DNA of 62,733 bases from a virus. Where the stretch lies: positions 1-62,733 of IMG/VR virus record IMGVR_UViG_3300023115_000020, one strand, 5' to 3'. Under the pieces are notes generated by a model. That model searched no databases, had not been told where the DNA came from, and worked only from the letters and a program-made list of their open reading frames with translations. Both the position numbers and the translations under genes were made by a program. Shown here in pieces: positions 1 to 61,885 of the stretch. The stretch's first letter is position 1. Each line of letters begins with the position of its first letter.

Positions 1-141
1 CACATTAAACGGAAACCATTTGCGGTCTTTTAAGAAAAGATAATATCGAGTTAAGTAAGGCTCGTTTTCGTAACGGTCCATAATTACTCGCTTGCGTCCT
101 AGTTTGTCTAACCAGGATAAAAATTTAGAACGGAATGTCAT
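1..141 (-). CDS. Cupin-like protein, N-terminal part only (runs off left edge)
   Basis: An open frame starts at ATG 141 and is still open at base 1, giving the first 47 residues. The segment contains the run EPYLTRYYLF followed by DRKWFPFN. I associate this with a small cupin-fold (RmlC-like) family in marine phages and bacteria whose metal site lies further downstream, but that part is outside the window, so neither function nor metal binding can be checked. Its start overlaps the 3' end of the preceding gene by 17 bases, the close packing typical of this genome. The family call rests on recall of a short N-terminus and is tentative; that it is a real gene is more secure. Confidence 0.5.
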   Translation of the reverse strand, partial: MTFRSKFLSWLDKLGRKRVIMDRYENEPYLTRYYLFLKDRKWFPFNV

Positions 142-547
142 CTTCGAATTCATCTATTTCTCCTGCCTTTTTCTTGCCTTCGTAGTCTTGTTTAACCATA
201 TCGTATACAGCCTTAAAGTTACGCCAAACTTTTTTTAATGCTGGATACTCTTTACACATCTTTTCAACTTCACTTGGGCTAATGATGCCAAAGTCGCCTG
301 TCAAGTTCCAATCACCAATGTTAATAGTAGTATCTATAGTATTAGTGTCAATAGTAAACGAACCGTCGTAACTACTGCTGTCATAAACAACGTCAGTTAC
401 ATTATTACCTGCCCAGTACGTTGTAGTAGTACCGTAAGTATCATTTAAGTTGATAGTAACACTATCACCAGTATTATTTACAAAATCGTCCAACTTTAAA
501 TCACTTATATCGATAGTAAAACTATCATCCTTCTTTGATTGCGTCAT
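125..547 (-). CDS. Hypothetical acidic protein with SSB-like C-terminal tip
   Basis: This 140-residue protein has no recognised catalytic domain. The first 80 residues are rich in Thr, Asp, Asn and Ile and look like a beta-strand region with repeated T-I-D/N-I patterns. From about residue 88 it becomes helical and charged, with a YPALKKVW segment. It ends in the acidic tail EFEDDIPF. DDIPF is also the extreme C-terminus of bacterial single-stranded-DNA-binding proteins, where it docks replication and repair partners. No OB fold is apparent, so this is not an obvious SSB. The start overlaps the end of the glycosyltransferase gene by 23 bases, suggesting translational coupling. I believe similar short proteins occur in marine T4-like phages; function unknown. 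Confidence 0.75.
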   Translation of the reverse strand: MTQSKKDDSFTIDISDLKLDDFVNNTGDSVTINLNDTYGTTTTYWAGNNVTDVVYDSSSYDGSFTIDTNTIDTTINIGDWNLTGDFGIISPSEVEKMCKEYPALKKVWRNFKAVYDMVKQDYEGKKKAGEIDEFEDDIPF

Positions 548-1625
548 AAAGAGCCGCTCCGCTAAAAAAGTTTTTATTTAATACTGTACGCTGTTTATCT
601 AAACTTACTAGATAGTCGTCATAGTTTTCCATATAATGACGAATCTTATCAACTATTAAACCTCTGTACTTTCTATAAGCAAAAAAGTCTTCAGTCCATT
701 CACTTGGATATAAAAACTCTGGAACAGACATTTCTGAATAACTTAATCTATCAGGCACCATGGGAATTGTATCTACTAGTGCGCCTTCGTACCAACTAAT
801 ACCAAGTGTTTCTTGTAGGTTAGCAGAGAACACCATCTTTGCTTCGCCTAACAAATTATGATATTCATTTTTAGTAAGCTCACGTTCTTGACATACAACA
901 AACTCGTATTCAGGCAGTTGTTCTGCTAAATCGCGGAATATTTCAACTTGTTTCTCTGGAGCAATACGATGCGGAAAGAGTATAAGATTACGCTTCTCCA
1001 TACCTTTGTAATTGTCTAAACTGTTCTTTAAATACTCCATAGGCCAGCCTGCACGTACAATTTTACCGTCGTTGTACAGTTCTTCTACTTCTTCGTCAAA
1101 CCAAGGATTCTCTGAAGGCATGCCATTGTTTAGCATTTCTGTGTGAAACAGTTTAGCGTGGAAGTCAGTAGCAAAAAAGTTTTGATCGTATACATGATAC
1201 ATACTCTTTTCTGCATGACGTACCCACGGAGCATTACCAATCAGTCTACCAAGGAAATCATGAGGATCGTAAGAACCAGCATGCCAAAGGCCACCGATTC
1301 TAATATCCACGGACAAAAGACTAGCCATGTAACGAAGCTGGATAACCGTTGGATTCCACGCATCAGTATATAGGAAATAGTCTCCATCTTTAATTTCTCC
1401 TTTACAAAACATTTCGCCAATAGTTTCAAGCTGTTTGCTCTTGTACACATTGGTTCCGCCGAAATTAAGAAATGCCCCAGGCGTAGTAGCCTGAGGCGTC
1501 TCTCCTCCACTTATGACCTTTACGTCTACATTTGTAGCACGTTGAAGTTGCCGTGGAAGATATTCCTTCCATTGCTTAGTATAACGTGTATCTACTGCTT
1601 CAATGTCTACAATGTAGATAGTCAT
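525..1625 (-). CDS. GT-B fold glycosyltransferase (GT4-like)
   Basis: This 366-residue protein looks like a retaining GT-B glycosyltransferase. The C-terminal half shows the nucleotide-sugar-binding Rossmann region: a strand ending FPHR followed by IAPEKQ near residue 220, a YEFVVCQE strand, and near residue 270 the run ETLGISWYEG, which holds the family's ExxGxxxxE-type donor-binding pattern. The N-terminal half, with WNPTVIQLRY and GLWHAGSYDPHDF, would form the acceptor domain. A GGAG ribosome site precedes ATG 1625. The acceptor cannot be read from sequence. T4 uses phage glycosyltransferases on modified DNA bases, and here a DpdA-like base exchanger lies 1.5 kb upstream in the same orientation, so DNA is one candidate and a virion protein or host surface sugar the other. 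Confidence 0.75.
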   Translation of the reverse strand: MTIYIVDIEAVDTRYTKQWKEYLPRQLQRATNVDVKVISGGETPQATTPGAFLNFGGTNVYKSKQLETIGEMFCKGEIKDGDYFLYTDAWNPTVIQLRYMASLLSVDIRIGGLWHAGSYDPHDFLGRLIGNAPWVRHAEKSMYHVYDQNFFATDFHAKLFHTEMLNNGMPSENPWFDEEVEELYNDGKIVRAGWPMEYLKNSLDNYKGMEKRNLILFPHRIAPEKQVEIFRDLAEQLPEYEFVVCQERELTKNEYHNLLGEAKMVFSANLQETLGISWYEGALVDTIPMVPDRLSYSEMSVPEFLYPSEWTEDFFAYRKYRGLIVDKIRHYMENYDDYLVSLDKQRTVLNKNFFSGAALYDAIKEG

Positions 1626-1832
1626 TTAGTTTCTCCGTTGGTTAATATTGCGCCCTGCATTACGGGCTTTTGCACGAAGATAATTTTGATATTTTTGATA
1701 AGATTGCCAGGTAATATCATCCTTGTTGTACAAAGCCTTTTCATCAAAAACCTTACCTTCAAAGCGACAGTAGTCGCGAAACTTTTCCAAATCGTCAAAA
1801 ATCTTTTCGACTGGTGGGAAGTTAGTAGCCAT
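1626..1832 (-). CDS. Small hypothetical protein (68 aa)
   Basis: A 68-residue basic protein with the N-terminal pattern PPVEKIFDDLEKFRDYCRFE and an Arg/Asn-rich tail. I recall short phage proteins with a similar FDDLxxFRxxCRFE core but know of no assigned function. The gene abuts the glycosyltransferase start with no spacer (stop at 1626, next ATG at 1625), and a weak GAGAGAG stretch precedes its own ATG. Its single Cys does not suggest a zinc site. It is most likely co-translated with the flanking genes. Confidence 0.65.
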   Translation of the reverse strand: MATNFPPVEKIFDDLEKFRDYCRFEGKVFDEKALYNKDDITWQSYQKYQNYLRAKARNAGRNINQRRN

Positions 1833-1848: not shown

Positions 1849-2334
1849 TTAGCATTTGGGATAAAAAATGGAACAGCCGTTTTCGTTGTCTTCAGCGACA
1901 CTAATCTCTACAAATCGGCCGGGATACTTTGTAGAAATTTCCTGATACAAGTCATCTGCAATCATCTCACATGACTTGTAATCTAGTTCTAAAACTGACA
2001 CTTTACCGTCGGACGAATCGCCTCCATTATAGAGTCTTTCCATCCATCGTTTGAACTGGATGAACTCGATGTCTCTATCGTTGTGGAACACCTCGATGCG
2101 CACCCGGAAGTGGAAAATATGACGATGAGGAACAGCAAGGAAACTAACATCGTCCCAGTCACCTGTCGCCAATTTTGGATCTTTGTCTGCATTTGGATAT
2201 TTATGTATTCCTTCCTTAGTAAAGGTGACCCAAATACTACGTTCTGCATTTTGCATTGCGTTTTGTTGTGACATTTTTTGATCTTCTTCTCTCATTCTTC
2301 TGCCCATATAATCATGGTAGGATTCACGTTGCAT
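1849..2334 (-). CDS. Divergent QueD / pyruvoyl-tetrahydropterin-synthase-fold protein
   Basis: The 161-residue protein carries the order of elements seen in the tunnelling-fold QueD/PTPS family. Around residue 65 there is HRHIFHFRVRIEV, matching the HGHxYxVxV strand with its zinc-binding histidines. Next comes DIEFIQFK, matching the usual VxDFxxLK, then SCEMIADDLYQEI, matching the P-T-x-E-x-x-A helix, and finally EISVAEDNENG, matching the substrate-binding VxxxET strand. The Cys preceding HGH and the Asp-His dyad of active QueD are not obvious, so it may have altered chemistry or be a binding protein. A TTGACA-17-TATTAT promoter ends 7 bases before its ATG, so it probably begins a transcript. 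A second QueD lies at 55.4 kb. With the DpdA-like gene nearby, a role in 7-deazaguanine metabolism is the main hypothesis. Confidence 0.55.
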   Translation of the reverse strand: MQRESYHDYMGRRMREEDQKMSQQNAMQNAERSIWVTFTKEGIHKYPNADKDPKLATGDWDDVSFLAVPHRHIFHFRVRIEVFHNDRDIEFIQFKRWMERLYNGGDSSDGKVSVLELDYKSCEMIADDLYQEISTKYPGRFVEISVAEDNENGCSIFYPKC

Positions 2335-2341
2335 TGTTTAT

Positions 2342-2370
2342 ATAATACTTTCATTCTATAACTTTGTCAA
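2342..2370 (-). promoter_or_regulatory. Early sigma70-type promoter
   Basis: Read on the minus strand: TTGACA (2365-2370), a 17-base spacer, TATTAT (2342-2347). Only seven bases separate the -10 box from ATG 2334, so the predicted start point falls at or beside the start codon of the QueD-like gene. It lies within the 3' end of the upstream gene. Confidence 0.8.
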
Positions 2371-2884
2371 GTCCATACTTACTCCAATCGGTAAACTTTT
2401 CATCGTCCATTAGATTGTGAAGTCTGTGACACCAAACACCTGGATTAGTTGCGTTAAAATCCTTATCATCCAATTTAATCATGGTGTTATAATTATACTG
2501 TTTGATGTAAGGAAGGGGAATTCTAATCTGCGGAATAAAGTTGTTCTGCTCAATTAGAATACTTTCGAGTAGTGCTTCTGCGTGACTGTAAGGAAGATCT
2601 AAACTACACAAGATACCTTTCTCAAGAAAGTGCATAATCATGTCGTCCCACTCTTCCCAAGCATCTGCATCTTTTGGAAAATTTACACCTGGATGGAAAC
2701 TGTGATTGGCTCCAAAGAAGATGTGTTCACACTGCTCCTTTTCGTACCAGAATTCAATTTCGTCTACAGGCTGTACACCTGTAACAAACAATGTACGCAT
2801 ACCAAGTGCAGGAGTCTTTTCAACTTCGACGCCTACAAAGTATTTTACATCAGTTTGTACACCGTCTTCGTAGTCTCTTTTCAT
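2351..2884 (-). CDS. Unrecognised 177-aa protein of the DpdA neighbourhood
   Basis: I do not recognise this protein's function. Visible features are KTPALGMRTLF near residue 25, the His/Phe-rich segment FGANHSFHP near residue 58, LCSLDLPYSHAE near residue 92, a run of aromatic residues (IKQYNYNTM), and NPGVWCHRLH near residue 150. There is no CxxxCxxC, so it is not a radical-SAM QueE, and there is no nucleotide-binding loop. It sits between a DUF465-like gene, whose stop it overlaps as ATGA, and the QueD-like gene, downstream of the DpdA-like gene. Guilt by association with 7-deazaguanine chemistry is the only functional clue. Confidence 0.7.
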   Translation of the reverse strand: MKRDYEDGVQTDVKYFVGVEVEKTPALGMRTLFVTGVQPVDEIEFWYEKEQCEHIFFGANHSFHPGVNFPKDADAWEEWDDMIMHFLEKGILCSLDLPYSHAEALLESILIEQNNFIPQIRIPLPYIKQYNYNTMIKLDDKDFNATNPGVWCHRLHNLMDDEKFTDWSKYGLDKVIE

Positions 2885-3090
2885 TTTAGTTCCAACTGTA
2901 CTAAACGTAGGTTAATTCTATGTATTTCGTCTTTTAAATAGAGTTTCATAGTTTTCATTTTACGAACTTCGTCGGTTACTGTTTGATTATTGTAACGTAT
3001 TTTAAGTTCAGTGTCAAGAGCTTTATGACGCCGCTCTAGTTCTTCCAAGTGACTACGAAGTTTATCTTCTTCTTCAGGATAATTGCTCAT
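2881..3090 (-). CDS. DUF465/YdcH-like coiled-coil protein
   Basis: This 69-residue all-helical protein matches the DUF465 pattern: LxxLxxRHKALDxEL, then LKDEIxRIN near the C-terminus, with heptad spacing suited to a short antiparallel coiled coil. The molecular role of the family is not established. A longer frame would begin with TTG at 3096, but ATG 3090 is chosen. GGAG lies 11 bases before this ATG, or 4 before the TTG, so the start is not certain. It overlaps the end of the DpdA-like gene by 17 bases and its stop overlaps the next ATG (ATGA). Confidence 0.7.
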   Translation of the reverse strand: MSNYPEEEDKLRSHLEELERRHKALDTELKIRYNNQTVTDEVRKMKTMKLYLKDEIHRINLRLVQLELK

Positions 3091-4627
3091 CTTCAAGAAT
3101 CTCCAAATTATGCTCCTCTTCTTCAGTAAAGGAACCGTCCTCGTGTAAATCTTCTTGGACTTCTGATTCTTCTACATCAAATAAGGCGTTAAAATGTGTA
3201 CTAGCATTTACAGTCTTTTTACCAACTGCACCTCTAGTGCCGGGTATAGCCATCCAAAAGCGACTATATTCTTCTATTTTTTGTAAAGCTTCGTCTCTGT
3301 CTGTAATTGCAAATATTTCTTCCACAACATCTCTAAATAGTATCCTGTCAAATTGCTCTTGAACAAGCATTCTCGGAATGACGCCATTGTCGTATTGTCT
3401 GTTTGCTTCTTGTACTGCATTAATGTGACTCCACACGTTATGTCCCATTTGGATAGCGTACGAGAAACTATCCCAGGACGTCTTCCCTTCTTTACCTATC
3501 TTATTTAGGTCTCCGGGAGCATATGTACAAACGTCTGATACTTTAAGTTCAGCGGTAATTGGACTGTCTTCAAAGTTTTTAAATATCCCATCTGATATAA
3601 CAGCATCTCTAAACAAACGGTTGTCTGTAGCATACTTTTTATCGTCAACTGACGGCACCATTCGATATGTCCATTTCGACCGATCCTCTGTCTCGTTCTG
3701 TATGTATATCTGTCCGTTTGCGGTTGCAAGGAAAGGACTAGCACAGTCAAAAGTGATAGTGAAGTTTTCATTATAATTCTTCCTTACTGCTCTTTGAATA
3801 TCTGTTAGTAGTAATGCCCATTCTAATTTTGATGTACCTAGGAAGTGCATTACATCGTGAATGCCTTTTTCTAATAGTCCGTCAAAGTGCAGTGTAACGA
3901 TTCGTTTCAACACCAAGTGAACATCACACATATTTTGTCCACCCATTGCCCAACCGTTAAAGTGATTGTCCGGATACTGTTTGGGATCACAGTAGTCCTT
4001 CATTTGGTTGTACCAATCATCTGCTTCTGCGTGATTCTCGCCTTGCAATACGTTTAGGAATTTGCAAGCACCAGTACGATTAGCAATCCAATAGTCATTG
4101 TTAATTCTTGTACCATCTACAGCCTCTTGATAACTTGTAATGCCTGTTGCTTCTTGTCCACGAGGTGAACGTGCCACCCACGCTGGAATATCAAGCACCA
4201 TGCCATAGTCCATATAAGCATCCATCCAACGGAGAACACCATCTCTTTTCTTTTGTGCTTTAGGACAGTTAGGATTTTTCCAGTCACCTTCCCATACGCC
4301 TTTACCAATCTGGAAACCACCTGAGTCGCCTAGTATCCACGAGTTCTGTCTATCTCTATTACGCACCATATCTTCTTTGGGTGAGTGCTTGTTCACATCA
4401 AGCTCTGCATGTCCTGCAGAGTACAGTGTCCATTGGTATTGGAACTGACCTTCTTGTTTGTTTAAATAGTTTAGACTTTCAACACCGTTAGCAAAGTTGC
4501 TAGGAATTCGTGACTTATCTACATATTCATCAAAACGCTGTTTGCCTACATAAGTTGCATAAAAGCCACTTAATGCTGGCAAAAATCTTGCGTAGTCTTT
4601 TTGTTCAGTAGTTAAGTCTTTATTCAT
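3074..4627 (-). CDS. dpdA: DpdA-like tRNA-guanine-transglycosylase homologue (DNA base exchange)
   Basis: The 517-residue protein has the landmarks of the TGT barrel: WILGDSGGFQIG at 98-108 (general acid/base Asp101), MVLDIP at 143-148, LNVLQGE at 191-197, GWAMGG at 225-230, HFLGTSK at 261-267, and TFDCASP at 292-298, which corresponds to the TGT nucleophile motif DCxxP (Asp294). Both catalytic aspartates are thus present. The CxCxxC zinc motif of tRNA-modifying TGT is not seen, and about 200 extra C-terminal residues end in an acidic tail. These features fit DpdA, which exchanges guanine in DNA for 7-deazaguanine derivatives such as preQ0. QueD-fold genes in the window would supply that pathway; folE, queE and queC were not seen here. 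It overlaps a 50-codon gene upstream. Confidence 0.7.
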   Translation of the reverse strand: MNKDLTTEQKDYARFLPALSGFYATYVGKQRFDEYVDKSRIPSNFANGVESLNYLNKQEGQFQYQWTLYSAGHAELDVNKHSPKEDMVRNRDRQNSWILGDSGGFQIGKGVWEGDWKNPNCPKAQKKRDGVLRWMDAYMDYGMVLDIPAWVARSPRGQEATGITSYQEAVDGTRINNDYWIANRTGACKFLNVLQGENHAEADDWYNQMKDYCDPKQYPDNHFNGWAMGGQNMCDVHLVLKRIVTLHFDGLLEKGIHDVMHFLGTSKLEWALLLTDIQRAVRKNYNENFTITFDCASPFLATANGQIYIQNETEDRSKWTYRMVPSVDDKKYATDNRLFRDAVISDGIFKNFEDSPITAELKVSDVCTYAPGDLNKIGKEGKTSWDSFSYAIQMGHNVWSHINAVQEANRQYDNGVIPRMLVQEQFDRILFRDVVEEIFAITDRDEALQKIEEYSRFWMAIPGTRGAVGKKTVNASTHFNALFDVEESEVQEDLHEDGSFTEEEEHNLEILEDEQLS

Positions 4628-4772
4628 CTTTTTCCTTTATGTGTTCGTAATCTAAGTAACTAGAACACCACTCGTAAAAATGTTTATCTGTATCAGGCCA
4701 ACAATCAGCAAACACAGAATCTTCTTTTCTATGTTGTCTATATTCTTGTCTAGCCTGTTTTTCAGTAATCAT
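4620..4772 (-). CDS. Small hypothetical protein (50 aa)
   Basis: A 50-codon frame beginning MITEKQARQEYR and ending EHIKEKDE is locked between its neighbours. Its ATG shares bases with the gp45 stop (TAATG), and its stop lies inside the first codons of the DpdA-like gene (ATGAATAA). That double overlap is the normal junction in this genome and is the main evidence for a real gene. The product is charged and probably helical, with two Cys and two Trp but no recognisable motif. Confidence 0.65.
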   Translation of the reverse strand: MITEKQARQEYRQHRKEDSVFADCWPDTDKHFYEWCSSYLDYEHIKEKDE

Positions 4773-5512
4773 TACTTGCTCTGTGCTGGTAAGATATAAT
4801 CGTATGTTGCCATACCTGAGTTAACACTAATCTTCATTGCACCTTGATCTGAAATGCTCATTGTAATGTCGCCACTTAGATTTAGTATTGCTTGTACTTG
4901 TGCTACAGGCCAACTCCATGTATGTTGTAATGAACCTGAAATTGCATTCTGGAAAACAAATTTACCTGCGTGTGTGCTTGCATCGCCAAAACTAAACACT
5001 AAGTCTGTAACACCGCCTGTAACTTCAGTTCTTACATTAAATGTAGGTTCTTCAGCATGTGCCGCTGCCATTAGTTTTAAACGTCCAATGCTTGAAACAC
5101 TTGGCTTTACTTCGACATCCCATGTTGCGCCTTTAAATTTTACACTTTTAAGTTTTTCTTCAATGATTGCTTTGTTCATAAAGCGATAATCATTTTGGAA
5201 ATCACCTGTTGTGTTTTCAAAGTGAATATGTGTTGGAACAACTTCTCCGTTGCGTTCTGCTTGTACAACTTCAATTTTAGCATTGTCTTTGTATTCAGGA
5301 TTCTTAAGATGCAAACTTAGTTTGTCTAAGTTAGGCATACCAAAAGTTCCTACAAACTCGTTAACTGGATTGTGTGTTTCTGCTGTTAAAATAACAGAAC
5401 GATCTTCCGCCATCGAGTCAATTGATGTGCTTTCGTCATTAGTAACTTTGACTAACGATAAAAAACCTAGTGCGTGAGTATGTGCTACTACGTCTTGTAA
5501 AATGTCTTTCAT
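4772..5512 (-). CDS. gp45: DNA polymerase sliding clamp (T4 gp45-like)
   Basis: The 246-residue protein matches the gp45 processivity clamp of marine T4-like phages. Diagnostic stretches are GTFGMPNLDKLSLHL near residue 57, HFENTTGDFQNDYRFM near residue 100, KFKGATWDVEV near residue 125, FSFGDASTHAGKFVF near residue 178 and ATYDYILPAQ at the C-terminus. It would trimerise into a ring that tethers gp43 to DNA and, in T4, also activates late transcription. T4 gp45 is 228 residues, so the length is close. It has its own consensus early promoter and a GGAG ribosome site. The clamp loader gp44 is encoded 25 kb away. Confidence 0.92.
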   Translation of the reverse strand: MKDILQDVVAHTHALGFLSLVKVTNDESTSIDSMAEDRSVILTAETHNPVNEFVGTFGMPNLDKLSLHLKNPEYKDNAKIEVVQAERNGEVVPTHIHFENTTGDFQNDYRFMNKAIIEEKLKSVKFKGATWDVEVKPSVSSIGRLKLMAAAHAEEPTFNVRTEVTGGVTDLVFSFGDASTHAGKFVFQNAISGSLQHTWSWPVAQVQAILNLSGDITMSISDQGAMKISVNSGMATYDYILPAQSK

Positions 5513-10257: not shown

Positions 10258-11757
10258 TTATTTTCCCTCGTACCAAGATTGTAAAAATTCATAATGATTT
10301 GGAAATGTTGCTTTACACAAATCAGTTTGTTTTTGTTTGCTTTCAATAAAATATTTCAAATACATATCTTCCTCAGGAGTATTTTTTTCAGCATCAATGT
10401 AGCCGCCACCAGCATGTATCATACTCCACCATTGTACACTCGAAAACATACTTTGTCTAGTTAAAAACATGATAGGTTTTGGATATGGATAATAGGTACT
10501 AATAATATTAATACAATCATCAGGTAGATCTTTAAGAGTTTTATTTCTTATTGCCTGCCAGTACATTGTATCTTTCTTATTACTAAAGAAATAGTGTGCA
10601 AAGATAAAAGAAAGTATTTCAATATTCAACCCGTAATATGATTGATTGATTGCATCTTTAACTTCGTCGCTCCAATTACCTTGAGACATCTGTATAAAGT
10701 GTACAAATGCTCTAACAATACTTGTAGTAAATGTAATACCTGTTGCTTCTAAAGGTTCCACAAATCCTGCACTTAGTCCTACAGCAAGGACATTTTTAAC
10801 TGCAACTCTTTGATGGGTTCCACATTTCATTTTTAAATGTTTTGCTGGAGCATCGTATTCGCCTAAAGCATCACGTAATTCTTTTTCTGCTTCTTCTGGT
10901 GTAATAAAGTTTGAACTGTATACATAGCCGTTACCAATACGGTCATAGACAGGGATAGTCCATCTCCATCCTGCATTCATAGCAGTTGCTTTTGTATAAG
11001 GGTGACATTCTGTTTTAGGATCTGTGTATTGAGTTTGTAGTGCAACAGCACTATCGTTTGGCAACCAAGTTTTAAAAGAAATAAATTCTTCTTTTAGTTC
11101 ATTTTCTAATAGAAGACTTTCAAAACCTGTACAGTCAATATACAAGTCTGCTTCGTAAATAGTACCTTCTTTGTCTTTGAGGAATGAAATACCATTAACG
11201 TCACTTCTAATATCTACAATTTCTGTATCTACATATGTAATTCTATTAAGGATAAGTTTTTTAATACAATCAATAATTTTATATGCATCAAAATGTACAG
11301 CACCAAATCCTTCAGGTCCAGTATTAAAGTTACAATCTAAATCTTTTGTAAGTTTTGGGCTAATATTGTTTTCTGCTAGTTGATAAGCAGGATACCAATC
11401 TAAAAACTCTTTATAGGATTTGTCTGCAAAATGCTTGTTAGCAAATAAATCAGGAGTAGCAAGATAGTTTATTGGATCATCGTTATCTACAAAATAAGGC
11501 TCGTCATTCCAGCCTTCTAGTTTAACTCCGTGCTTAAATGTTGCATTACTAGCAGGCATCCATTCATGCGGCTGTAGTCCACATTCATAAAGGAAACTAG
11601 CAGTTGCAGGTTGAGTTCCTTCACCTACGCCAATTGGACCTTTTTTGCTATCTTCAATTAAGCAAATTTTTACTTGTTCAGGGAGATTATTAGTTAGATA
11701 TGCGGCAGTCAACCAACCACTGGTTCCGCCACCAAAGACGATTATTTTTTCTATCAT
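10258..11757 (-). CDS. Flavin-dependent tryptophan-halogenase-like protein
   Basis: The 499-residue protein has the FAD-binding start VFGGGTSGWLTAAYL, the halogenase signature WRWTIP near residue 245 (WxWxIP), a KLEGW segment in the position of the catalytic lysine of PrnA, and GFVEPLEATGI, matching the conserved FVEPLE(S/A)TGI that carries the active-site glutamate. Key residues thus look intact. Known family members chlorinate or brominate tryptophan or indoles using FADH2, oxygen and halide; the phage substrate is unknown. It lies between dsbA and gp43 in a replication operon. The only redox candidate seen is the ferredoxin at 29.8 kb. Confidence 0.85.
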   Translation of the reverse strand: MIEKIIVFGGGTSGWLTAAYLTNNLPEQVKICLIEDSKKGPIGVGEGTQPATASFLYECGLQPHEWMPASNATFKHGVKLEGWNDEPYFVDNDDPINYLATPDLFANKHFADKSYKEFLDWYPAYQLAENNISPKLTKDLDCNFNTGPEGFGAVHFDAYKIIDCIKKLILNRITYVDTEIVDIRSDVNGISFLKDKEGTIYEADLYIDCTGFESLLLENELKEEFISFKTWLPNDSAVALQTQYTDPKTECHPYTKATAMNAGWRWTIPVYDRIGNGYVYSSNFITPEEAEKELRDALGEYDAPAKHLKMKCGTHQRVAVKNVLAVGLSAGFVEPLEATGITFTTSIVRAFVHFIQMSQGNWSDEVKDAINQSYYGLNIEILSFIFAHYFFSNKKDTMYWQAIRNKTLKDLPDDCINIISTYYPYPKPIMFLTRQSMFSSVQWWSMIHAGGGYIDAEKNTPEEDMYLKYFIESKQKQTDLCKATFPNHYEFLQSWYEGK

Positions 11758-38952: not shown

Positions 38953-38959
38953 TATTTAT
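38953..38959 (-). promoter_or_regulatory. Late promoter (exact TATAAATA)
   Basis: Minus-strand ATAAATA preceded by T, 20 bases before ATG 38932. One of two elements matching the full T4 late octamer; it overlaps the end of the giant gene. Confidence 0.72.
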
Positions 38960-41900
38960 AGTCTACCAACAACAACTTCAACAACGCCTCTGTCTTCGCT
39001 GTCTTTTGTGCCAACTGCTTTACCAATAACAGTACCTAGTTTAGGATCGTTATCAACAATAGCATATCCTGGTATAGCACTTGTTACAAGCATATCACCT
39101 TTTTGTACTTTACCAATAACCTTACAAGGAACACGACCTGTTAGTGCTAGTTCTACAGCAGTGTCTCCTTCTAAGCCTTTATTCATTAAGAATCCTGGGT
39201 TAGTTGAAACAACGCCTGCAACTCTACGGTCACCTTTAACAGTACATGCTGTAACTTCTTCATCTCCACCAAATACTAGTACAGTTCCTGGTTCGTATGC
39301 TTCATCAGCAACATATTTCTCTGCCAAGTCAGCGTAGTTAGCAGTAGATGCATTACCACTTAGATACGGAACAGATAATGTTGTAGTACCTGGATTGTAA
39401 GTATAGCTTGCACTGTTAGCAAATACCTCATTAGAAGTACCAGTACCATCTGAGAATAGTGGGAAGAAAGTACCTGAGGTTGTTGTATCTGTGACAGCTA
39501 AATTCGAAGCTGTCTCTGCTGTAACATCTGCACTGTTAATAGAAATTTCACCATTAGATATACTAATACCAGTACCGCTACTAAATGCTGCTCTAGCTCT
39601 TGCAGTTGTGTGATATAGGTTGCTAGAACCTTCACTTAAATCATCAGTGTCATGGTTACCAATACTTGAAACTCGACCATACAAGTATCCTGTTGTTCCA
39701 CCTGTTCCGTCTAGATCAAGGATCGTTGTTGTTCCAGATACTATGTCACCTTGTAGATTTCCTGTAAACTTAGTTGTCGAAATCCCACCGTCTGCTATGC
39801 TAGTACCTGTGCCTACTTTTAATATATTGCTAGTTGGATTGTATGTTAATGCTGCATCAGTAAATAATTTTTCATTTCCGTCTGCACCACTTCTATCACC
39901 GTAGGCATTGTTAACAGTAGTAAACGTAACAAAAATGTCACTATCTAATAGTCCGTCAGTTTGACCAGCAGTGTTCATTTGCGAAGTTCTTAGTGTATTT
40001 GCTATTACAGCTTCGTCAACGCCACCTGTTAATGGACCATTAAATTTACCGTAGAAAACTGTGGCATTTGCATCACTACCTGCCTGTACTGTACCAACAT
40101 CAACAATAATATTACCACTTGAATCTTTAATATCACCTTGATGTGTACCGTAGTTAGTTGTAATGTATGCCTTATCCCAATAGTTGCTGCTTGCACCTAT
40201 GTTTAGTGTACCATTAGGTTCAAAGTTACTATACGATGTTATTGTATTTGAAATAGTCAACCTATTTTGAACAGCACCATTATTGTGTGCTGTTTGAATA
40301 ACTAGTTCACTTCTTTCACCACCATTTGTTGCATTAGTAGTATTACTAACTATATTTGTAAGTATTTGATCAGTTTCTTCAGCTGCGTTAACACCTCTAA
40401 ACTGTATTACTCCCATATTGTCTGTGTCTAGACTATCAACATCTGTATCAAACCTTTGAAGAATGAGCGATGGAGCACTGGCATCAGTACGAGCTTTTAT
40501 TGTTAAACTATCGTTTGAAATAACCGAATTAATTTTTAAGGTATCAAAACTTACATTGTCGCCCAAATCAATGTTGCCATTTACAAACAAATCGCCTTGT
40601 ACAGTAACATCATGATTAAATGTAGCAGTACCTGCGTCTGACATATTGAACGATAGTGCAGTAAATTCAGTGCCATCGTCATTGCCACGTATACGTAATA
40701 CTTTATCTTGTTCAGTGTGATAAATGTCAGCACCGCTGGTAGTATTAGTAAACTTCAAGAAGTCTGTGCCATCGTCTTTAAATGTAATATCAGCATCGTT
40801 AGCATCAAGGATAATATCACCCTCCGCATCAAGTGTAATATCACCGCTTGCAGATAAACTAACTGTACCACTTGCTGCGGTAGTATGAGTTGCACTAATA
40901 CTTACAGCACCTTTTTCAGCAGTTAACCCTATACCACCACTTGCTTCGGCAGTAAAGTTTTTCTCAGTACCGCCAACATCAATAGTAAATGCACCTTGTG
41001 TTGTAAGCTCTTGAGCATCTTCTGTAAGTGCAAAGCCCATTCTTTCATCAGTACCGTCGTTGAACTTAATGTTCTCACCGGCAGCATCTAGTATAATGTT
41101 ACCACTTGTAGTAGTTTCAATTTCAAAGTCGCCACCTGCTCTACTAATCTTATTGTCATCTAACACACTGTTATCTACAGTTAGTTTAGTAGTAGTTAAG
41201 TTAGTACCATTAACAGTTAATGTACCTGCAATAGTTGTATTACCATTATTACCTGCAACAGTAAACACTGCTGTACCACCGTCTGGTACTGATCCGCCGG
41301 ATGAAACGTTAAATGTATTAGTGATCGATGTAGAACCATTTGCAATGTGCATACGATTTACACCATTAGTTCCCAGTTTAATATTATTCTGTTCAACTTT
41401 AAGTGCAGATCCGTATCCATTAACTACAAGTGCAATTTCTTTTGCGTCAGTTGCCCAACCACCTGCACCTATAGAAACACCTGTACCAAGTGATGTAAGT
41501 TCACCTGGTGCTTGAATAAAGTTTGAATATATCCATGGTGATACCAAGTAAGGTTGGCTATTAGCAATCTGCGGACCTTCAGTGTTTTGCTGGAAGTTAC
41601 TTGCATATCCACCGTAGTTAACATCATCTTTAAGTACAGTTGTTGAACCTATTTGTACCGATGCACTCGGAATTGCCACTGTGCTCTTATCTGTTGCATT
41701 GCTAGGAGCAGTACCTGACAGTTCCATAATTAAATGATCGTTTGGTGTGTATAGTGTTAGTTTAGAATTAACAACATCCAATGCTCTTGTGCTGTCAATT
41801 ATTAAACCTTTAATATTGATCCAGCCACCTAAGTTTAACTGGTTGTTAATATTACCAACAACATCTCCAGTTGCTAATGTCCTTACAAGAGAATCATTAG

Positions 41901-44900
41901 CACCAGTTTTAGTAATATCTGTTGTTCCGTAAACTTTATCTCTAACTTTAACCAGTGCCTTACCAATTAAGTTTTGCGAAGTTATAATTGATGTTGGAAC
42001 ACTTGCTGGACCTAATGATGAACCATTCTTTATTTGCAACATTCCAATTGTATTAAATGCTGTTCCACTTACGTTTACAAGAACAATTTGGTTTTCGCTG
42101 TTTACATCACCTTGTAGTGTACCTTCTGCGGCAGTGTTACCTACCTGTGTAATAATTGGTGATGTACTTGCATCTATTGTTACTTCGCCTGTTAGTGTAA
42201 GAACAGTTCCACTTAGTTTTACAAGATTGCTGTCATTAAAGTCGTTATCTTGAATACCACCACCTTCGTCAACAATCATGCTAAACGGAATAGCTCTAGT
42301 AATACCAATTTCGCCTGCACCTTCTTGATTGCCATCAAAGTCAATATCTGCACGACCAATTACAGTACGTTCTGGAATTTCTTGTAACTTGTCAAAAGTA
42401 ATACCTCTGTCTTTAACATTAATATAACCTGTATTAAGAATTCCGGTAATATATGTAGTACTCTGAGATTGTGTATCTTTAGTATAATCTGCATTAACAG
42501 CAATTCTAGTTAAGTAATTTGCAGAACTGCTTCCTATACTAAACGAACTTGCTGTTCTTACTTTGATTTGATCAGTTACACCGTCGCCTGAATTTGTATT
42601 ATTTGCAATCACATATGCAACTCTTGCACCATTTGATTGTGTGATAATATCACCGGCTTGTAAAGAACTCATAAATGTTGTATGATTTGATCCTGCTAAA
42701 GTCCAAATTTGGTCCTCTGCAAATGTACTTCCATCAAAAGCAACAACACCTTGACTTGCTTGACGTGTGCGTTGACCTGTAGTTCTAACATATTCTGGAA
42801 CACTATTGTTGCCTAGTAAAGCACCGCCTTGTATCTGTAGTTGTTGGCCGCCTTCACTTTCTGGTAAGAATGTACCTGTAACATCTTCAAGAACTAGAAT
42901 GTTATATCCTTGAATAGTATTTGCTAGTGCTGCAAGTCCTACTACTGCTGTACCTACTGCGTTTGTATTTCCTTGTTGGGTAATAATTGTTCCTGCTGTT
43001 ACTGGAACATTATCTTGCAGTTGTAAAGTAACAGTTGTTTTTTCAAAGTAATTAGAGTTAGTTAACACTGGAGCAGTGTTTAGTTTTAGTTTATTTTGAC
43101 TAATATCTGCGTATGTATTAACATCACTGTTAACGACTGCTTCGTCCTGTAGCTGTAGATTTATTTTAGTTTCACCTGGGAAAATAATATCCACATCATT
43201 TTGTGCTTGTGTTGCTCTCTTGCGTTCAACACTAATATTAATATCACTTCTTGATGCAGTTCCTGGGTCACCGTCTTCAGTTTTATTTGCTTCGCTGGCA
43301 TTTGCAAACTCAAGTGTTGTAGTAACAGGTGCGCCGTCAAAACCACCTGTAGTATTACTCCAGTCACCGCCCGAGTTTTCAATCTTTTCGTTACTGAAAT
43401 CACTTACTGATAAGTCGTTAGCTGATAGCGGACTAACTGTTGAAGTTGTTAAATTACCAAACAGATCTTCAACAATCAATGCTTCACCAACAACAAACTG
43501 TTTATTTGGATTTCTGTTAATTACTTGTATTTCATTATCTTGTGTTTTTTGTCTATTGTCATTGGTTGTACTTGAACCTTGTGGCCAAATAACTTCACCG
43601 TATGCACCGCTAGCCTGTCTAAGGATGTATCCTCTTTGTGTAGGAAGATTATTATTTGCACCATTTGTTGTAATTGTTGTAATCTTTAAAGGACTATAAA
43701 CTAGTACAAAAACTTGTTCATCGTTATCAAGAACTTTTGCTTCTAAATCTTCTATATAGGCTGCTGTAGCAGATGTTACACCAGTAATTAGTTGTCCTAT
43801 TCTCCAATCATCTGGGTTACCTGTATTTTGTTTAACATAAACTCTTCTATTACCAGTTAGAACAACAATATCATTTTTACCGTATTCTGATGCAAAGTCT
43901 ATTTGATTAAGTTCAATATCTCTAAGTTCTTGAACCTCGTCATTTGCAAAAACACGTTTGTCAACGTATTGCTTATTGGTAGCGTCTAGATCATCTGAAG
44001 GATCGCCTAACTGTATTAGTCTACCACCCTGCATGTTCATTGTATGTACAGGAAGTCCTGCAACAATATCTGGAGTAAGTATTGGATTAAGTTGTGGTAA
44101 GAAACCGTCGCCTAGTTTTGCTAGTTTGACATTCATGTTTCTATCATAACCTAAACGTCTATCAATATATTGTTCTACAGCATAAGATGTTGGAACAGTA
44201 CTATTATCAATTGGTGACATACCGTTATCACCTGTAAACTTACTAATTGTTTCACCATCTCTAAATCCAAGTCCGTCTAGACCAGAAATATTAATCTGCG
44301 CTGCAAATTTAACTGTACCTGTACCTTGGTCAACTTCAAAGAACTTACCAACTCTAAAGAAGCCGTCTTCGTCTGTTGACATAACAAACACACGACCCTT
44401 ACCTTTTTCCCAGACTTGAGATTTTTCAGCTGTGTCTGCGTTAGTGTATGCTTCTGCTTTTGCTTCTGTTGCTTCACCAAATAGTATATTTGGATAGTTA
44501 GAAGTATTAAATCCGCCTGTACCAATGTTACTAAAGTCGTGTCCTGTAGCACGAGTTAATGAAATATTAACTGTAATACTTGAAGGTTCTCCGTCCTGTA
44601 CACCTATACTTAGAACAAGTTGTTGATTTTGTCCGCCTAGTCTTAAAGGTCTAGCAATACCACTTGTTGGTGGTGTAGGACTACTTTGAGAATTTTTGTC
44701 GCTAAGTGGAGTTGACTCTAATTCATAATATGGGAATCCTGTTAGTAGTGAACTTCCTGCTGGAACACCTTGGTAGTTTCCTTCACCATCGTGATATGCT
44801 TTAACAACATGAACTCTGTCTTTCCAACCAAAGATCATGTCTGCATTATTAAGTCTGCTTAGTGTGTCACTATCTGTAACAGGAGCAGTTATTGCAACTA

Positions 44901-47900
44901 AAGTATCACCTGCTGTACTACCAAATGTAGTACTTGAACTAATCCCAACAACTTCGCTAGGCGTTGCTGCTGATGCGCTGCCAGCTATGGTGATTACACC
45001 AGATGTAGTAAATGCTGTTCCGTTCCAGTCTTTAAGCCATAGTGTAGTTGTATTAGTTAGTGATTCTATAGCAACAGCACTTGCACTTCCTTGAGTAATA
45101 ACATCGCCTTTAGTAACAGAAACTTGGGCATCTAGTACAAGTTTAACTTGTGTTTCAAATTTTGAGTAATCAACTGTTGATAAAATATACTTATAGTTGT
45201 CATCAAATGTTACAAGATTCCAACCTGAAGGTAAATCGTTATCATTAATTCCACCCCAGTCTGTAATATTTTGTTTGCTAAAGTCTAACGATCTATATAC
45301 TTTTGATGATTCGTCGAGTACAACAGCAGTTGAAGGTCGGATGCTTGTATTTGGATCAATATTATCAAATATTAATTTAGCACGTTGTCTAATAACAACA
45401 GTTTCGCCACCGTATAACGGATATATTAATCCACCAGTTGTTGTACTTCCGCTTACATCGCTTGTTTGATTTGAGAAAGATATTTTCCAAACAGCACCGT
45501 TGCCGCCTTCTAACGGTAATCCGCTAGTGTCTCCACTCGAGTTTGTAGCTGTGACATTAACGCCGTCTGTATACACAGTAGTATCTTGTCCAGTATATAC
45601 ATTTGTAATTTTAATTCTGTCAGAATTGTTAAAGAAATTAGTAGTACCATCTGGTTGTGATATGTATACTTGAGTACCACCAACAACATCGCCGTTACTG
45701 TCTTTTGTTTTTTGTGGTACTACAATAGTACCAACAGCACCTGTATTTTCTTGTGTTATAGTGTCACCATAATCTGCAATAACATAATCATCTAGTGTAA
45801 GAATAATTTGGTTAACTGCTGGAATACCTTCCTCAATAAATGCTGAAACAACATTAACAACTTCAAACTTTCTTAAATCAGTACCTTCTTCGTCTGCAGG
45901 GTAAATATCACCATTAGTGCTTAATGTTCCAGATAAACTTGCAGCAGAAGATAAAGCCTCATCACTGTAAAGAGTAAAGTTATTAACATCAACAACACTA
46001 ATATACCAATCACTGTTTAACCCAGTAACACCTACACTATCTGAAATAGTAACTTTCTGTCCAGTTTCCCAGCCGTGTCCTATTAAGTTAATACTATTAG
46101 GAGCAGTAAATCCGTCTATTTCTTGTTTTTCGGTAAAGATAATATCTATCTCACCTTCTGGAATAGGAGTAAAGTCTGTGTCATACACAAACACATAATT
46201 TTGATTTGCATCAGCTGATGCTTGAATGGTTGGGTTCACATAAACTTTAGCAGTCTGTACAGTGTTATATGCTAGTTGTCCTGATTGTGGAACTTCGTTA
46301 GGGTCACTACCTGCTGCAACAAGACCAAAGTTACCATATGCGTTAGAACCGCCTACTGATCTAATTTCAGAACCATTATTTGCGTAATAAGCAGCATGAC
46401 AGTAGTATGTAAACATACCGACCATCTCTGACAAACCAGTGTTAGTTACAAGTAAGCCGTAACCTAGGTCGTTAATTTGTGTAAAGTCGTTTCCTAACTG
46501 TGATCTGTTACCAGCTGTTTGTAGTACAGTTGGATAGTTTTCTATCTGACCATATGTATATTGTTTGTCACCATTACTATCGTAGTAAGAACCTAATACC
46601 GGACCTTGCCATCCTGTCACAAGTCCATTACTGTCTGTAACACCAGAGTTGGCATCTAGGATAAGTTCACAAGTACCTGCATCAATGTCGTGGTTAACTA
46701 TTGAGTTAACTTGATAACGTATGCCATTTACATAGAACGGAGCAGGAAGCTCAGGTCTTCTAACAAATAAACCGTGTCCTACGCCTACACCATTGACTGT
46801 AACTTGTGATCGTTTACTTCTTGCAAACAATCTAAATGCATTACCATTCTTTTGACCAACAATTTCAATTGGCATGTTACCGTTAAATCCGTCAACAAAC
46901 ATACCACCTCTAAATGCTTGTTTGTTAGCAGATTGTGCAAATGAAGAACCTGTCTGAATATATGGAGATTTAGTTAGAATCTGTCCAGCAGGGTCAAGCA
47001 CAGTCATAAATCCACCGTGTCCTTGAACAGTACAGTTACGTATAATAGTAGCATCGTTCATTAAGAACACATCCATGTCTTTGTTGTTTAATGCAGGATT
47101 ATATTCTGCATTGAATGCATATACAATGGTAGAAATTAAATCATTAACAACACCGGCTGCACCAGCTTCTGCTGTTGGTAAATTAGTTTTCCAAGTTGTT
47201 ATAACTGTACCTGTTGGTTCTTGTATACCTGCTATGCTTAACAAGTCTGCACAAACAGTAGCAATTCTATTAATTGCTTGAGATGTAATTTCTTCTTGTC
47301 CTACTTCAACGGCGTTTTCGTAGTACTTTCCTTGCACTTCCATTGATTGGTCATTTCGACCTTTTACTAAGTCGTATGCAAGTGCATCTACAATGTATCC
47401 AATATCTCTTTTACATTTTGTAGTAAATGTAAACTTACCTACACTAACACTATCTGGAACACCAGCAGCACCATGTGCTCCTGATACACTACCAGAAATT
47501 GTATCAGCAGTATTAAATGCTCTAGTAGGTGATACAAGAATAACTGTAGTTTGTCCGGCAGCAGTAACAGGATCTTCTTTAACAATACCAGAAGCACCAT
47601 CACCGCCTAATTGAGTCATTGTTTCACCTTTAACTGCGGCAACAGTTCCTGTGAATACTATAGTAGTTTGTGCCCAAGTACCAAATCCTGCTGTCTGAGC
47701 AGCAGTTGCTTGGATATCCATCCAGTCATAAATTTCTTCTTGTATGTTTGCTTTGTTTTGTGTTAAAATTTCAGCAGCATTTTCTCTGCCGCCTCTATTA
47801 GTAACAGACACTAAAGAATTATTGTTTACAGGCTTTGTAGGATCTTTAGCATAATGCCATCCCATATCAAAATCACGAGTGTTAACAGTGTTAACAGAAT

Positions 47901-50900
47901 TAATAGTTAGTCCAGCTTGTACAACACCATTTAAACTAAATGGGTCTGTATTTACAAACTGTCCACTTGCTGGGAAGTTTGCACCTGCTGGGTTATAGCC
48001 GTCAAAATATGTTACAGGTACTGATGTAGCATTAACAACATCTTCTAGTATTGTTGCTTTTTTATTTGTGTTACTATTAATAAATGTAATAGTTCTGTCA
48101 ACAATATTTACATTAGCATCTGCACTTTGAAGATTTGTGTCAATATCTGCTTTGGCATCTCTATATGCTTGTGGAATGTTTGTTCCATTTAAACTAGCTG
48201 ATGGCAATGTTGCTGCTGCTGGCACAGTTTGTGTAGCAATAGCATTTTGTATAATATTAAGAAGTGTTTGTGCTTCAGACTCTTCAGTTACTGATGCATT
48301 TGCACCACTGGTTACCTGATCATTGATACCGTCTGAGTTATCATTACCTGTTGCGCCAGTTAAAGTTACGCCAGTAAGTACTTCGCCTACAATGTTTTTG
48401 AAGTGTGTTATTGCAGTTTGGATAACAGTTGCAAATGTAGCATTAATATTTAAAGATGTATCTGTAAAATACAATCTTGCTAAAGTTGTTGAAGCATCAT
48501 TACCGCCATAAAGTATATCATATGTTAATGCATCTATCCAACGATAAATGTGTACACCTAAAAGATTTTCAACTGTTTGATTATATCCTGCTGGTGGAGA
48601 TGTATCATTTTCAACGTGTGCTAATATATCATCTCTTAAAAATGGTTTGTTGTTTTGTAATTTGTCACGTGCAGCAACTTTATTAGAATCAACGCCAGTC
48701 CAATCCGGAAATACAATAGTTTCTGTTACATCAGCAATGTATCCAGGTAAAGGAATACCGTTACCGTCTAAACTACCTACAGTGTTTGTATCTACATTAC
48801 CATTTTCAATAATATCTAAAACAGTTTCAAAGTATTCCGTTGCTCGTTCAACCATTGTAGAGTTGTCTGCTACGTCATCTAATAATTTTACTAAGTTACC
48901 TGCAAATCCAACTGCTGCAAGTTCTTGTGCTAATTGACTATTTTGTACAACGGCACCACTTGGATACTGATATGCAAGACCGTTTATAACTTGATTATAG
49001 TTTGTTCCTAGCACTAAGTCAAACCCAGCACCAGTAAGAATATATTCTAAGTCTCTTTCACATTTGGCTTGATCATATGTAAAAGTACTTGTTTGTGTAA
49101 TTACATCGCCTTTGTATGCAGTTAGTGTTCCACCTGTAATTGTTAGTACTGCTTCATCTTGGAAAGTAACAGTATTATTGTGAAGTGTTAGTCCATCAAA
49201 GTATTTGTCGCGATAGAAATAAGTGTTTGCCCATTTAGATTGTGATACACGATTCTTTGGACGTATAATTGCACGTCTCATCTCGTCGCCAACAATAGAT
49301 ACCTGAGACGAAACTTTAATTGGATAATCTTCTTCGTAGATTCCTGATTCAACCATAATGGTAATTTGTTTAGTACTAACTCTGTTACCAAATTCTAAAG
49401 TATCACCTAATGCATCTGCAACTTCAACTCCTTGAATATCACGTCCTGCACCTTCTACTAAAAACTCAAATGGTTCTTCTAATATAAGTTCTAGCTCGTC
49501 TACATTATTAGCATTGTTAATATCGTTGCTGTAACTAACAATACGACCAATAGCACCACTTCTTGTACCAACTACAACTTTTCCTGGAATTAAATCAATG
49601 TTTCCGCTTTGTCCTTGCCATACAGCATCTGCACTACCGTTATCAAATTGAATAACATACGGAGCACCTTCGCGTAATGTAGGAGCACCGTCAAGACCAT
49701 CTCTAATAATACTAGTAACAACATTGAACTTTGCTTCAAACACATCTATTGCTGCACTTGGTGCATTAGCTGCTGCACTTGGTGCAGCCGGATCAAAGTA
49801 CTGAACGTAGTCAACGTTTCTTACAGTTGGCCAAGTAGTATTAACAAGTATATAATCTCTAAGTAATTCTAGTGCAAAGTTAATAATAGCAACAGTTTGT
49901 TCTTCTTGTGTTGTAACAGCAAGTCTACCGCTAGAGTTACTGTAGTATCTTAAACCTGCATTTCTTGATAGTTTGTTAGCAGTAGGACTAGACTGTGTAT
50001 CTAGTTTTGCTGCATCAATAATATAGCCTAAGTCTCTAGCACATATTGCTTCATTGTATGCAAAGTTTTTCCAAATATAGTCTGGATCAGCTTCTGTAAG
50101 TGTTAGATCTGCTGTAGCAGTTTCAATTTTATAAGAAGCATAAGCGATAGCTTCTGCAATAACAAAGTCTTTGTTTTGTACAATAAGTGATTGTAATTTT
50201 TCTGTACTTGCACCGTAATCTGCTCTTTCGCCTTGTTTAAATTCTGCTGAACGAACTTTTGAAGGTGTTAAGTTTTGTGCATCAGTACCGTATTCGATTA
50301 CCTGCATGTATGGACCAGGTTCAACTGGACTTGCTTCTACAATTTCTTCTGCTCTACGTGCCGCCGCATTAACAGTACGATATGCATATGCTAGTGAACG
50401 ACCTTCTTTACCTGGAGGTGTACTTGCTTGAGTATCGTCACCTGTTGTGCTAACAAACAAGTTAATGTTAGATGCAAAACTTGTATTGTCTACATAGAAT
50501 TTTGTAGCAGCCTGTAAATCTTCAATGCCGTTCGGAGTACCTATGCCTGCAAGTTCGCCTGGATGATCTTCTAGATACAAAGTACCTTCCATTTGATCGC
50601 CTTGTCTGCGAACAGCACTTTGGCGTGGTATTGCTTCATTAGCAAGATAATCGCCAGTTAAATCATTTGGTTGATAATAATAATCTGTTAGTGTTTGTGT
50701 TCCGTTGCCGCCTGCAACATTTATTCTGTTAACTCCTGCTTCCGCATCAGCCTTAGAAGAATATAAACCTAATTGGGTATCATTAATAACTCTGATATAA
50801 AATAATGACTCAGGAAATTCTGCAACATCATTTAGATCTGCTTGTGTTGCTTGGTCAACTGCACTTGTTCCTGTAGTAGCATATACAAATGATGCACCAT

Positions 50901-53022: not shown

Positions 53023-53293
53023 GTTTAGCACTTAACTGATCAATTGCAGTTTCACAGCGAGTGAGCTTGCGTTCTAAAACGTTTATAGCTGCTCGCTGTT
53101 TTCTTGACTGTTCTTCTAAAGAACGAACATATGCTAAGGTTGGAAGTTCTTGCTGAGCACCGTCTTCGCCAAGCATAACAATCGTATCTACACCCTGTGC
53201 TTTTAATCCGCCAGTAATTCTATTTGGATTTTTATCAGTAGAGGGCGCAGTGTTCTTGGATTGACGACCGTACATCTTGTTCAAATAGCTCAT
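53009..53293 (-). CDS. Hypothetical coiled-coil protein (94 aa)
   Basis: Starts at ATG 53293 (MSYLNKMYGRQSKN), preceded by AAAGGAAG and an exact TATAAATA late promoter. A longer in-frame start lies upstream of that promoter and is rejected. The second half is a coiled coil (YVRSLEEQSRKQRAAINVLE, TRCETAIDQLSAKL). Its first 59 bases overlap the end of the UV endonuclease gene in another frame. Probably a small structural or assembly protein. Confidence 0.66.
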   Translation of the reverse strand: MSYLNKMYGRQSKNTAPSTDKNPNRITGGLKAQGVDTIVMLGEDGAQQELPTLAYVRSLEEQSRKQRAAINVLERKLTRCETAIDQLSAKLSRS

Positions 53294-54320
53294 AATCTTC
53301 CTTTGCTTTCTTATATTTATACAAGTCAATGCTTGCTAAATTCTTACACTTAGACTCTACCATAATGTCTGCATAGTCGTTAAACTCTAATGCCCAGTCA
53401 TTAACAGCATTGTTCCACATCATATCAGAGTGGGCACGTAGTTTTTGTTTCTTAAAGCCATTCATAAGCAAGAACTCCATGTCAGGTAGTTCGTTGTCAG
53501 GCCATTCTGCAAGTAAATCTTCTTTGCTTACGCTGTAATGTATAACAGGACGCACACCACGCCATGATTCAATTACACGATCAAATCTACGGTCGGTTGG
53601 TAGAATGTATTCTCCTGTACGCACCCAGTGATGGTGTATGTCAAGAACGAGGGCAACGTGCTTTTCAAGTTCGAGGCTTGCGTCGAGTCCCCACGACATT
53701 TCGTCGTTTTCGATCGTGATGGTGTTTCTTGCTTCGGGCGATAGTCTTGGTAGGACGTCGATGATGCCTTGTGGACCTTTTCGACCCGATATGTGTACAT
53801 TGCATTTAAAGTCTTGAAATGTCTGTCCGTATCCCATCCAGCGTATGACATCCACATGATACTCAAACTCCTCTATACTTCTATTTACTATATCATCACT
53901 GTCACTTGCCAAGACAGTAAACTGCCCAGGATGCATACTAAGCCGGACGCCATTACTTTTGGCGAGGGTTCCGACCCGTGCCAAATGCTTTTCACAATAT
54001 GCGACCACATCAGGACGTTTCCAAAAATAGCACCAATCAGGCTGAGTGTATACAGGGAGGACATCAGAGCCCAGTCGAACCATTCGTAACTCATTAGGTA
54101 AATCTCCTACATATTCAATAAGGTTGTAAAACGACTGAATATTATGTACCATGATGTCCCACAGTCGTTGTTCTGCAACATCACGAGTTTGTCTATTGAG
54201 CCAAGCAACTGTAGTTGACTTGGTATTCAACGGACGTTGAATTTCCTCTAATAATTTTTTCTTTTGCTTTTGATCTGGATGCATGTACTTACATGCAAAG
54301 CCTATGCGTTTAGTAGTCAT
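53235..54320 (-). CDS. uvsE: UV damage endonuclease (UvsE/UVDE)
   Basis: The 361-residue protein fits the UVDE TIM-barrel family: MVRLGSDVLPVYTQ, LSMHPGQFTVLASDSDD, VHISGRKGPQG, ITIENDEMSWG, ALVLDIHHHW and IHYSVSKED, holding the conserved His, Glu and Asp metal ligands. The enzyme nicks 5' to pyrimidine dimers and other lesions, giving photorepair-independent resistance to sunlight damage, apt for a surface-ocean phage. A consensus early promoter precedes it; the ribosome site is weak (AGG). Confidence 0.93.
   Translation of the reverse strand: MTTKRIGFACKYMHPDQKQKKKLLEEIQRPLNTKSTTVAWLNRQTRDVAEQRLWDIMVHNIQSFYNLIEYVGDLPNELRMVRLGSDVLPVYTQPDWCYFWKRPDVVAYCEKHLARVGTLAKSNGVRLSMHPGQFTVLASDSDDIVNRSIEEFEYHVDVIRWMGYGQTFQDFKCNVHISGRKGPQGIIDVLPRLSPEARNTITIENDEMSWGLDASLELEKHVALVLDIHHHWVRTGEYILPTDRRFDRVIESWRGVRPVIHYSVSKEDLLAEWPDNELPDMEFLLMNGFKKQKLRAHSDMMWNNAVNDWALEFNDYADIMVESKCKNLASIDLYKYKKAKEDYELFEQDVRSSIQEHCALY
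53314..53320 (-). promoter_or_regulatory. Late promoter (exact TATAAATA)
   Basis: Minus-strand ATAAATA preceded by T inside the 3' end of uvsE, 20 bases before ATG 53293. Confidence 0.72.
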
Positions 54321-61843: not shown

Positions 61844-61851
61844 ATAAGTTT

Positions 61852-61879
61852 AGTATACTTCTTTACACTCGTATGTCAA
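61852..61879 (-). promoter_or_regulatory. Promoter between tRNA-Cys and tRNA-Arg
   Basis: TTGACA (61874-61879), 16 bases, TATACT (61852-61857). It would give tRNA-Arg its own transcript. Confidence 0.65.
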
Positions 61880-61885
61880 GTTTTT

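Follow-up and report, generated by a model that had tools for sequence, protein, structure and literature searches.

The replacement of guanine in DNA by DpdA, and by DpdA2, is established, and the DpdA2 phage nt-1 carries dPreQ0 (Hutinet et al. 2019, PMC6884629). The same study already noted a QueC-less phage that possibly carries the QueC substrate (PMC6884629).

Like the locus described here, the DpdA2 module of Vibrio phage nt-1 and KVP40-like phages combines folE, queD and queE with an enzyme of the tRNA-guanine transglycosylase (TGT) superfamily that has both catalytic aspartates and the core motifs. However, the protein studied here is about 16% identical to nt-1 DpdA2 and falls in a separate, fully supported clade, and nt-1 has QueC and is without the 161-aa, 177-aa and glycosyltransferase (GT) genes of our locus. 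Acidovorax phage ACP17 has the same components as our locus, in the order queD–folE–177–dpdA2–GT–161–queE and without QueC, but its DpdA belongs to the DpdA2 clade and its genes form one compact cluster, which the literature searched does not present as a modification system. Enterobacteria phage 9g (DpdA/Gat-QueC) likewise replaces guanine in its DNA by means of a transglycosylase; its QueC, however, is fused to an amidotransferase, and the product is archaeosine. The DpdA of 9g was not matched by the profiles built here. The dCDG and 7-deaza-dG pathways of Cui et al. 2023, with DpdL and DpdA3, reportedly follow a similar QueC-less logic that ends at 7-carboxy-7-deazaguanine (CDG) or its decarboxylated form; to our knowledge, no glycosylated form has been described for them. 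Our literature search, which covered open-licence papers, returned no report of glycosylated 7-deazaguanine in DNA, nor of the module described here in PA5oct, Paride or ACP17.

Here, we analyse an IMG/VR virus record of 62,733 bases (the whole stretch, hereafter ‘the window’), which is probably a fragment. We judge it likely that the block of genes near its left end is a CDG-based 7-deazaguanine DNA-modification operon of a jumbo phage, with a GT that probably glycosylates the inserted base or its precursor.

Gene layout and phage affiliation

The genes of the block, together with a second queD-type gene at a distance, are as follows (window coordinates).

125–547, minus strand: 140-aa acidic ORF overlapping the glycosyltransferase gene, conserved in many relatives
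525–1625, minus strand: 366-aa putative GT4-type (Glycos_transf_1) glycosyltransferase
1626–1832, minus strand: 68-aa small ORF, conserved, between the 161-aa and glycosyltransferase genes
1849–2334, minus strand: 161-aa QueD-fold protein; H44, H70 and H72 (metal site), E123 and E148 kept
2351–2884, minus strand: 177-aa protein, fold not matched; conserved E20/E22, H54, N60, D139/D140 and NPGVW
2881–3096, minus strand: 71-aa helical ORF, DUF465-like (Pfam 3e-6), with a TTG start; kept in most relatives
3074–4627, minus strand: 517-aa dpdA-like putative DNA guanine transglycosylase; D101 general acid/base and D294 nucleophile by analogy with TGT
4772–5512, minus strand: 246-aa member of PHROG_12062 and probable sliding clamp; in relatives, the gene immediately upstream of dpdA
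55206–55655, minus strand: canonical queD, encoding a CPH4 synthase with Cys, Asp-His and Glu all present

The minus-strand genes from the probable clamp (5512) to the 140-aa ORF (125) overlap or follow one another at no more than 16 bases, and on these spacings and their common strand they look like one operon. The clamp assignment comes from inspection of the sequence and from position; in Phosso, the gene adjoining the polymerase carries a clamp annotation. In a scan of viral contigs, homologues of the 517-aa protein turned up in at least 598 IMG/VR stretches. Of the loci, 80 extend far enough to show the gene order, and almost all of these preserve clamp–dpdA–71–177–161–68–GT; the signal is far beyond chance. 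Scans with the PA5oct, Phosso and ACP17 proteins added few or no new lineages.

An earlier note on this DNA had placed the dpdA-like, 177-aa, 161-aa and canonical queD genes where we find them. The 177-aa gene does lie between the dpdA-like and 161-aa genes, but two genes intervene rather than the one proposed, the other being the 71-aa ORF, which overlaps both dpdA and the 177-aa gene. The reading of the block as a 7-deazaguanine module is borne out by folE and queE next door in relatives and by the queD at 55.4 kb; the GT and the likely extension past the left end had been missed. The label ‘T4-like’ was right at the level of the T4 superfamily and otherwise loose: the polymerases closest to that of the window belong to two jumbo phages, Phosso (469 kb) and Atu_ph07 (490 kb), and the window comes from a marine jumbo phage of that superfamily.

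Elsewhere, the window encodes (all on the minus strand) a flavin-dependent tryptophan halogenase directly upstream of the DNA polymerase gene (10258–11757; Pfam E 2e-91), a single ORF of 4219 aa that takes up about 20% of the record (38956–51615), a UvdE-type UV endonuclease (53235–54320; Pfam E 2e-38) and a cluster of nine tRNA genes at the right end (61767–62722).

A putative DpdA-type transglycosylase outside DpdA2

As a single query, the 517-aa protein has no match in Pfam, PHROGs or PADLOC, so the call of a DpdA/TGT-like enzyme in the earlier note was not a trivial one. Single-sequence searches of these collections with the dpdA, 161-aa, 177-aa and GT products returned little or nothing, as did narrow profiles against the PDB; broad-family profiles alone worked. 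Compared with DpdA2 (Vibrio phage nt-1 and kin), the family profile of the 517-aa protein aligns over 193 columns (P 95%, E 4e-8), with both aspartate motifs in register, and a joint profile of the window family and DpdA2 matches almost exclusively tRNA-guanine transglycosylases among PDB sequences (best E 0.006). Among 15 homologues with identity down to 31%, including PA5oct, Phosso and Vibrio phage 2.275.O, D101 (GDSGGFQ) and D294 (TFDCASP) never vary, and the same is true of a 12-row alignment with DpdA2 included; the pair lies in the DSGGF and FD(C) motifs of the TGT superfamily and DpdA. The protein has no CxCxxC zinc site and no match to Pfam TGT (PF01702), which sets it apart from bacterial tRNA TGTs. 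Both catalytic aspartates and the missing zinc motif had been correctly read from the sequence before, and the comparison of profiles with the DpdA and TGT families agrees with that reading.

The AlphaFold model of the protein is of modest confidence (pLDDT 61, pTM 0.67), with about 200 residues poorly predicted. The 50 PDB matches listed for it by Foldseek are without exception TGTs or 7ui4, the crystal structure of DpdA (probability 1.00, with E 1e-5 to 1e-4 and low TM-scores of 0.3–0.46), which points to the (beta/alpha)8-barrel fold of TGT. Our tree sets the window clade against DpdA2 and splits the two by a 100/100 branch; membership of the nt-1 DpdA2 clade was rejected on this branch, despite the profile relationship. 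From motifs, profiles and tree, we assign the 517-aa protein as a DNA-type guanine transglycosylase, DpdA-type, in a clade of its own outside DpdA2.

A third transglycosylase-like family (motifs DNSGF / HFLG / WDTSS; weak profile support) occurs near folE and the 161-aa gene at loci L119:6417-7289, L120:6686-7543, L102:9071-10339 and L115:9855-10634. Phages Ahp1, D479, RHph_I1_18 and phiST, which are without the window-type DpdA, have this family nearby.

The glycosyltransferase and a possible sugar

Pfam Glycos_transf_1 is found in six of 11 members of the 366-aa family (best E 8e-12; the window member alone falls below threshold), and by this family membership we class the protein as a GT4-type glycosyltransferase. 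From its motifs, we suspect that it may be specifically related to the mannosyltransferases of tRNA queuosine. The gene travels with DpdA and the 161-aa gene across divergent lineages: it adjoins dpdA in PA5oct, ACP17 and X1, and the 161-aa gene in BUCT-ZZ01 and in Phosso, where folE is also near. In PhiXhv-12, its neighbours are gat-queC and a gene resembling a sugar deacetylase. Neither 9g nor the DpdA phages with QueC (nt-1, pf16, Marzo and Vibrio 2.275.O) have the GT. Given this distribution, a sugar on the modified base is the most economical reading, and the GT probably adds it to the inserted base or its precursor, an acceptor suggested by linkage.

The GT could also act on something other than DNA, and the strongest competing account builds on this: the DNA would contain unadorned dCDG or 7-deaza-dG, while the GT glycosylates something else. 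Both dCDG and dDG are said to be known in phage DNA from the work of Cui et al. 2023, and folE occurs with the 161-aa gene but without the GT in RHph_I1_18, phiST, Bakedbeans, Ahp1 and D479. Nevertheless, five divergent phages have the GT adjoining dpdA or the 161-aa gene, and a sixth has it adjoining gat-queC, which is hard to reconcile with an unrelated GT; we consider this account possible but doubtful.

The PhiXhv-12 locus (L121:3669-6903), where gat-queC, a BshB/LmbE-like deacetylase and the GT stand together, hints that the decoration also exists in an amino-sugar form.

The 177-aa protein

That the 177-aa protein is a pathway candidate, as previously suggested, has support, and our guess is that it serves the tailoring branch as an accessory. 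We rejected the idea that it is a degenerate form of QueE, QueC or DpdA (hhalign P at most 0.2%, and no PDB fold match). Its model (pLDDT 77.5) likewise has no fold match in the PDB and one convincing viral structural relative, the ACP17 homologue. The core of the module does not need the protein: X1, Phosso and BUCT-ZZ01 possess DpdA, the GT and the 161-aa gene but no 177-aa gene. These absences, and the position of the PA5oct homologue (44%) far from dpdA, are what one would see in a passenger that contributes nothing to the pathway. Yet nearly all relatives of the window keep the gene at the same place, and in the distant ACP17 it is wedged between folE and dpdA, its start overlapping the folE stop and its end running into dpdA, so that we think a mere passenger unlikely. 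As to the ACP17 gene itself (gp122; L097:6236-6721), the deposited start is probably too far downstream, the conserved protein beginning at the ATG that overlaps the folE stop.

Precursor genes, QueC and the QueD-fold protein

Strong folE genes occur in 14 of 14 long relative contigs, and the order GT–...–PRTase–folE–queE, about 6 kb from dpdA, is found in 12 of 12 regions examined, with folE and queE adjacent and downstream of the GT in all 12 long relatives. The window stops 3 kb beyond dpdA, so by analogy with these relatives folE and queE are expected just outside its left end. In four inspected reads (by eye), the queE of relatives has the TGGEP motif and apparently the three cluster cysteines, the last two of which are separated by a long insert. 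Canonical queD lies elsewhere on the contig in four of the 14 relatives. A type-I PRTase with an intact PRPP motif sits between the GT and folE in all 12 long relatives (L103–L114) and could salvage the guanine released by DpdA.

QueC presents a different picture. The search for folE, queE and queC that had been proposed earlier recovered the first two in long relatives, but no true QueC in 14 relative contigs of up to 357 kb, which yielded three weak matches, none of them in the 357-kb contig. The complete preQ0 set (QueC with FolE, QueD and QueE) was thus absent from these contigs, the window itself being a fragment. The weak matches in G012 and G014 were discounted as lying inside radical-SAM gene blocks; that in G002 lies elsewhere and is weak too. 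Such blocks, of up to about 20 radical-SAM genes, share contigs with the module in relatives (G002:C1 3.9–39.4 kb, G004:C1 42–78 kb, G010:C1 11–39 kb and others).

With QueC missing from the clade, the phage-encoded pathway stops at CDG, and the product is more likely CDG-derived than preQ0-derived. The 161-aa protein fits this reading. As the earlier note had recognised, it is a divergent QueD-fold protein (hhalign against QueD: P 92.8%, E 4e-7, a PTPS/QueD fold); it shares metal-binding histidines with QueD (6-carboxytetrahydropterin synthase), but is about 13–19% identical to it and, across its family, is without the catalytic Cys and Asp-His, which makes the QueD reaction by the known mechanism impossible. 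We compared 16 phage records, 10 with the 161-aa gene and six without. QueC is above the cut-off in all six without the gene; among the 10 with it, eight have no QueC match, X1 falls short of the cut-off and D479 matches in part (Fisher p 2e-4 to 9e-4, according to how D479 is treated, the phages being related and not independent samples). The exclusion holds in both DpdA clades, as well as in Ahp1, D479, RHph_I1_18 and phiST. Given this mutual exclusion, the 161-aa protein probably acts on CDG in the place of QueC. A 2023 study reportedly proposed a CDG decarboxylase, DpdL, for phages with 7-deaza-dG, and the 161-aa protein may be DpdL or its kin; on the exclusion and this proposal, CDG decarboxylation is the simplest role for it, activation of the carboxylate being less likely.

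The base proposed in the earlier note was derived from preQ0, and this part of the proposal is not supported. Host QueC could supply preQ0, the enzyme being present in many bacteria, and nt-1 carries dPreQ0 (PMC6884629). However, the phages bring FolE, QueD and QueE and not the next enzyme: even a 357-kb contig of the clade has no true QueC, and the 161-aa protein is found where QueC is missing. We regard preQ0 or a preQ0 derivative as improbable. Far less credible still is a transglycosylase that modifies tRNA and boosts host or phage queuosine, with DNA not the target: the TGT fold and the nine tRNA genes of the window speak for it, but the missing zinc motif, the DNA-modifying DpdA2 as the nearest characterised family, the lack of QueC in the clade and the location beside the polymerase and probable clamp all speak against it.

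Proposed pathway

In the CDG-based pathway that we favour, FolE, QueD and QueE would convert GTP to CDG, and the 161-aa protein would process CDG instead of QueC, most simply to 7-deazaguanine. The DpdA-like enzyme would then swap guanine in replicated DNA for the modified base by TGT chemistry, D294 attacking C1', D101 serving as general acid/base and free guanine leaving, perhaps to be recycled by the PRTase of relatives. The GT would probably glycosylate the inserted base or its precursor, with the 177-aa protein as a presumed accessory of this branch. The computations themselves show the TGT/DpdA fold with its catalytic residues, the linkage of the genes, the lack of QueC, a QueD fold devoid of the catalytic residues of QueD, and the family of the GT. 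For each chemical step after CDG, for the sugar and for protection from restriction, we infer function from genes and their neighbours. Tentatively, as falling somewhat short of probable, we put forward the full combination: a glycosylated 7-deazaguanine whose synthesis starts from CDG, bypasses QueC and involves a new subfamily of DpdA, a QueD-fold enzyme turned to another use, a GT4 that acts on DNA and, in the 177-aa protein, a new family of enzymes.

Implications

On this reading, an abundant group of uncultured jumbo phages, represented by at least 598 contig stretches, joins the phages that replace guanine. The analysis also delineates a clade of DpdA that lies outside DpdA2, and it points to the linked 161-aa, 177-aa and GT families as candidate tailoring enzymes. 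PA5oct-like phages and ACP17 offer culturable proxies for it. If the sugar is real, it would represent a class of hypermodified purine in DNA of which we found no report, and would be relevant to the question of which restriction or Type IV systems can act on these phages. Through the module, an altered base probably takes the place of guanine in the phage DNA and is perhaps decorated with a sugar, which would be a new variation on an established means of hiding DNA from bacterial defences.
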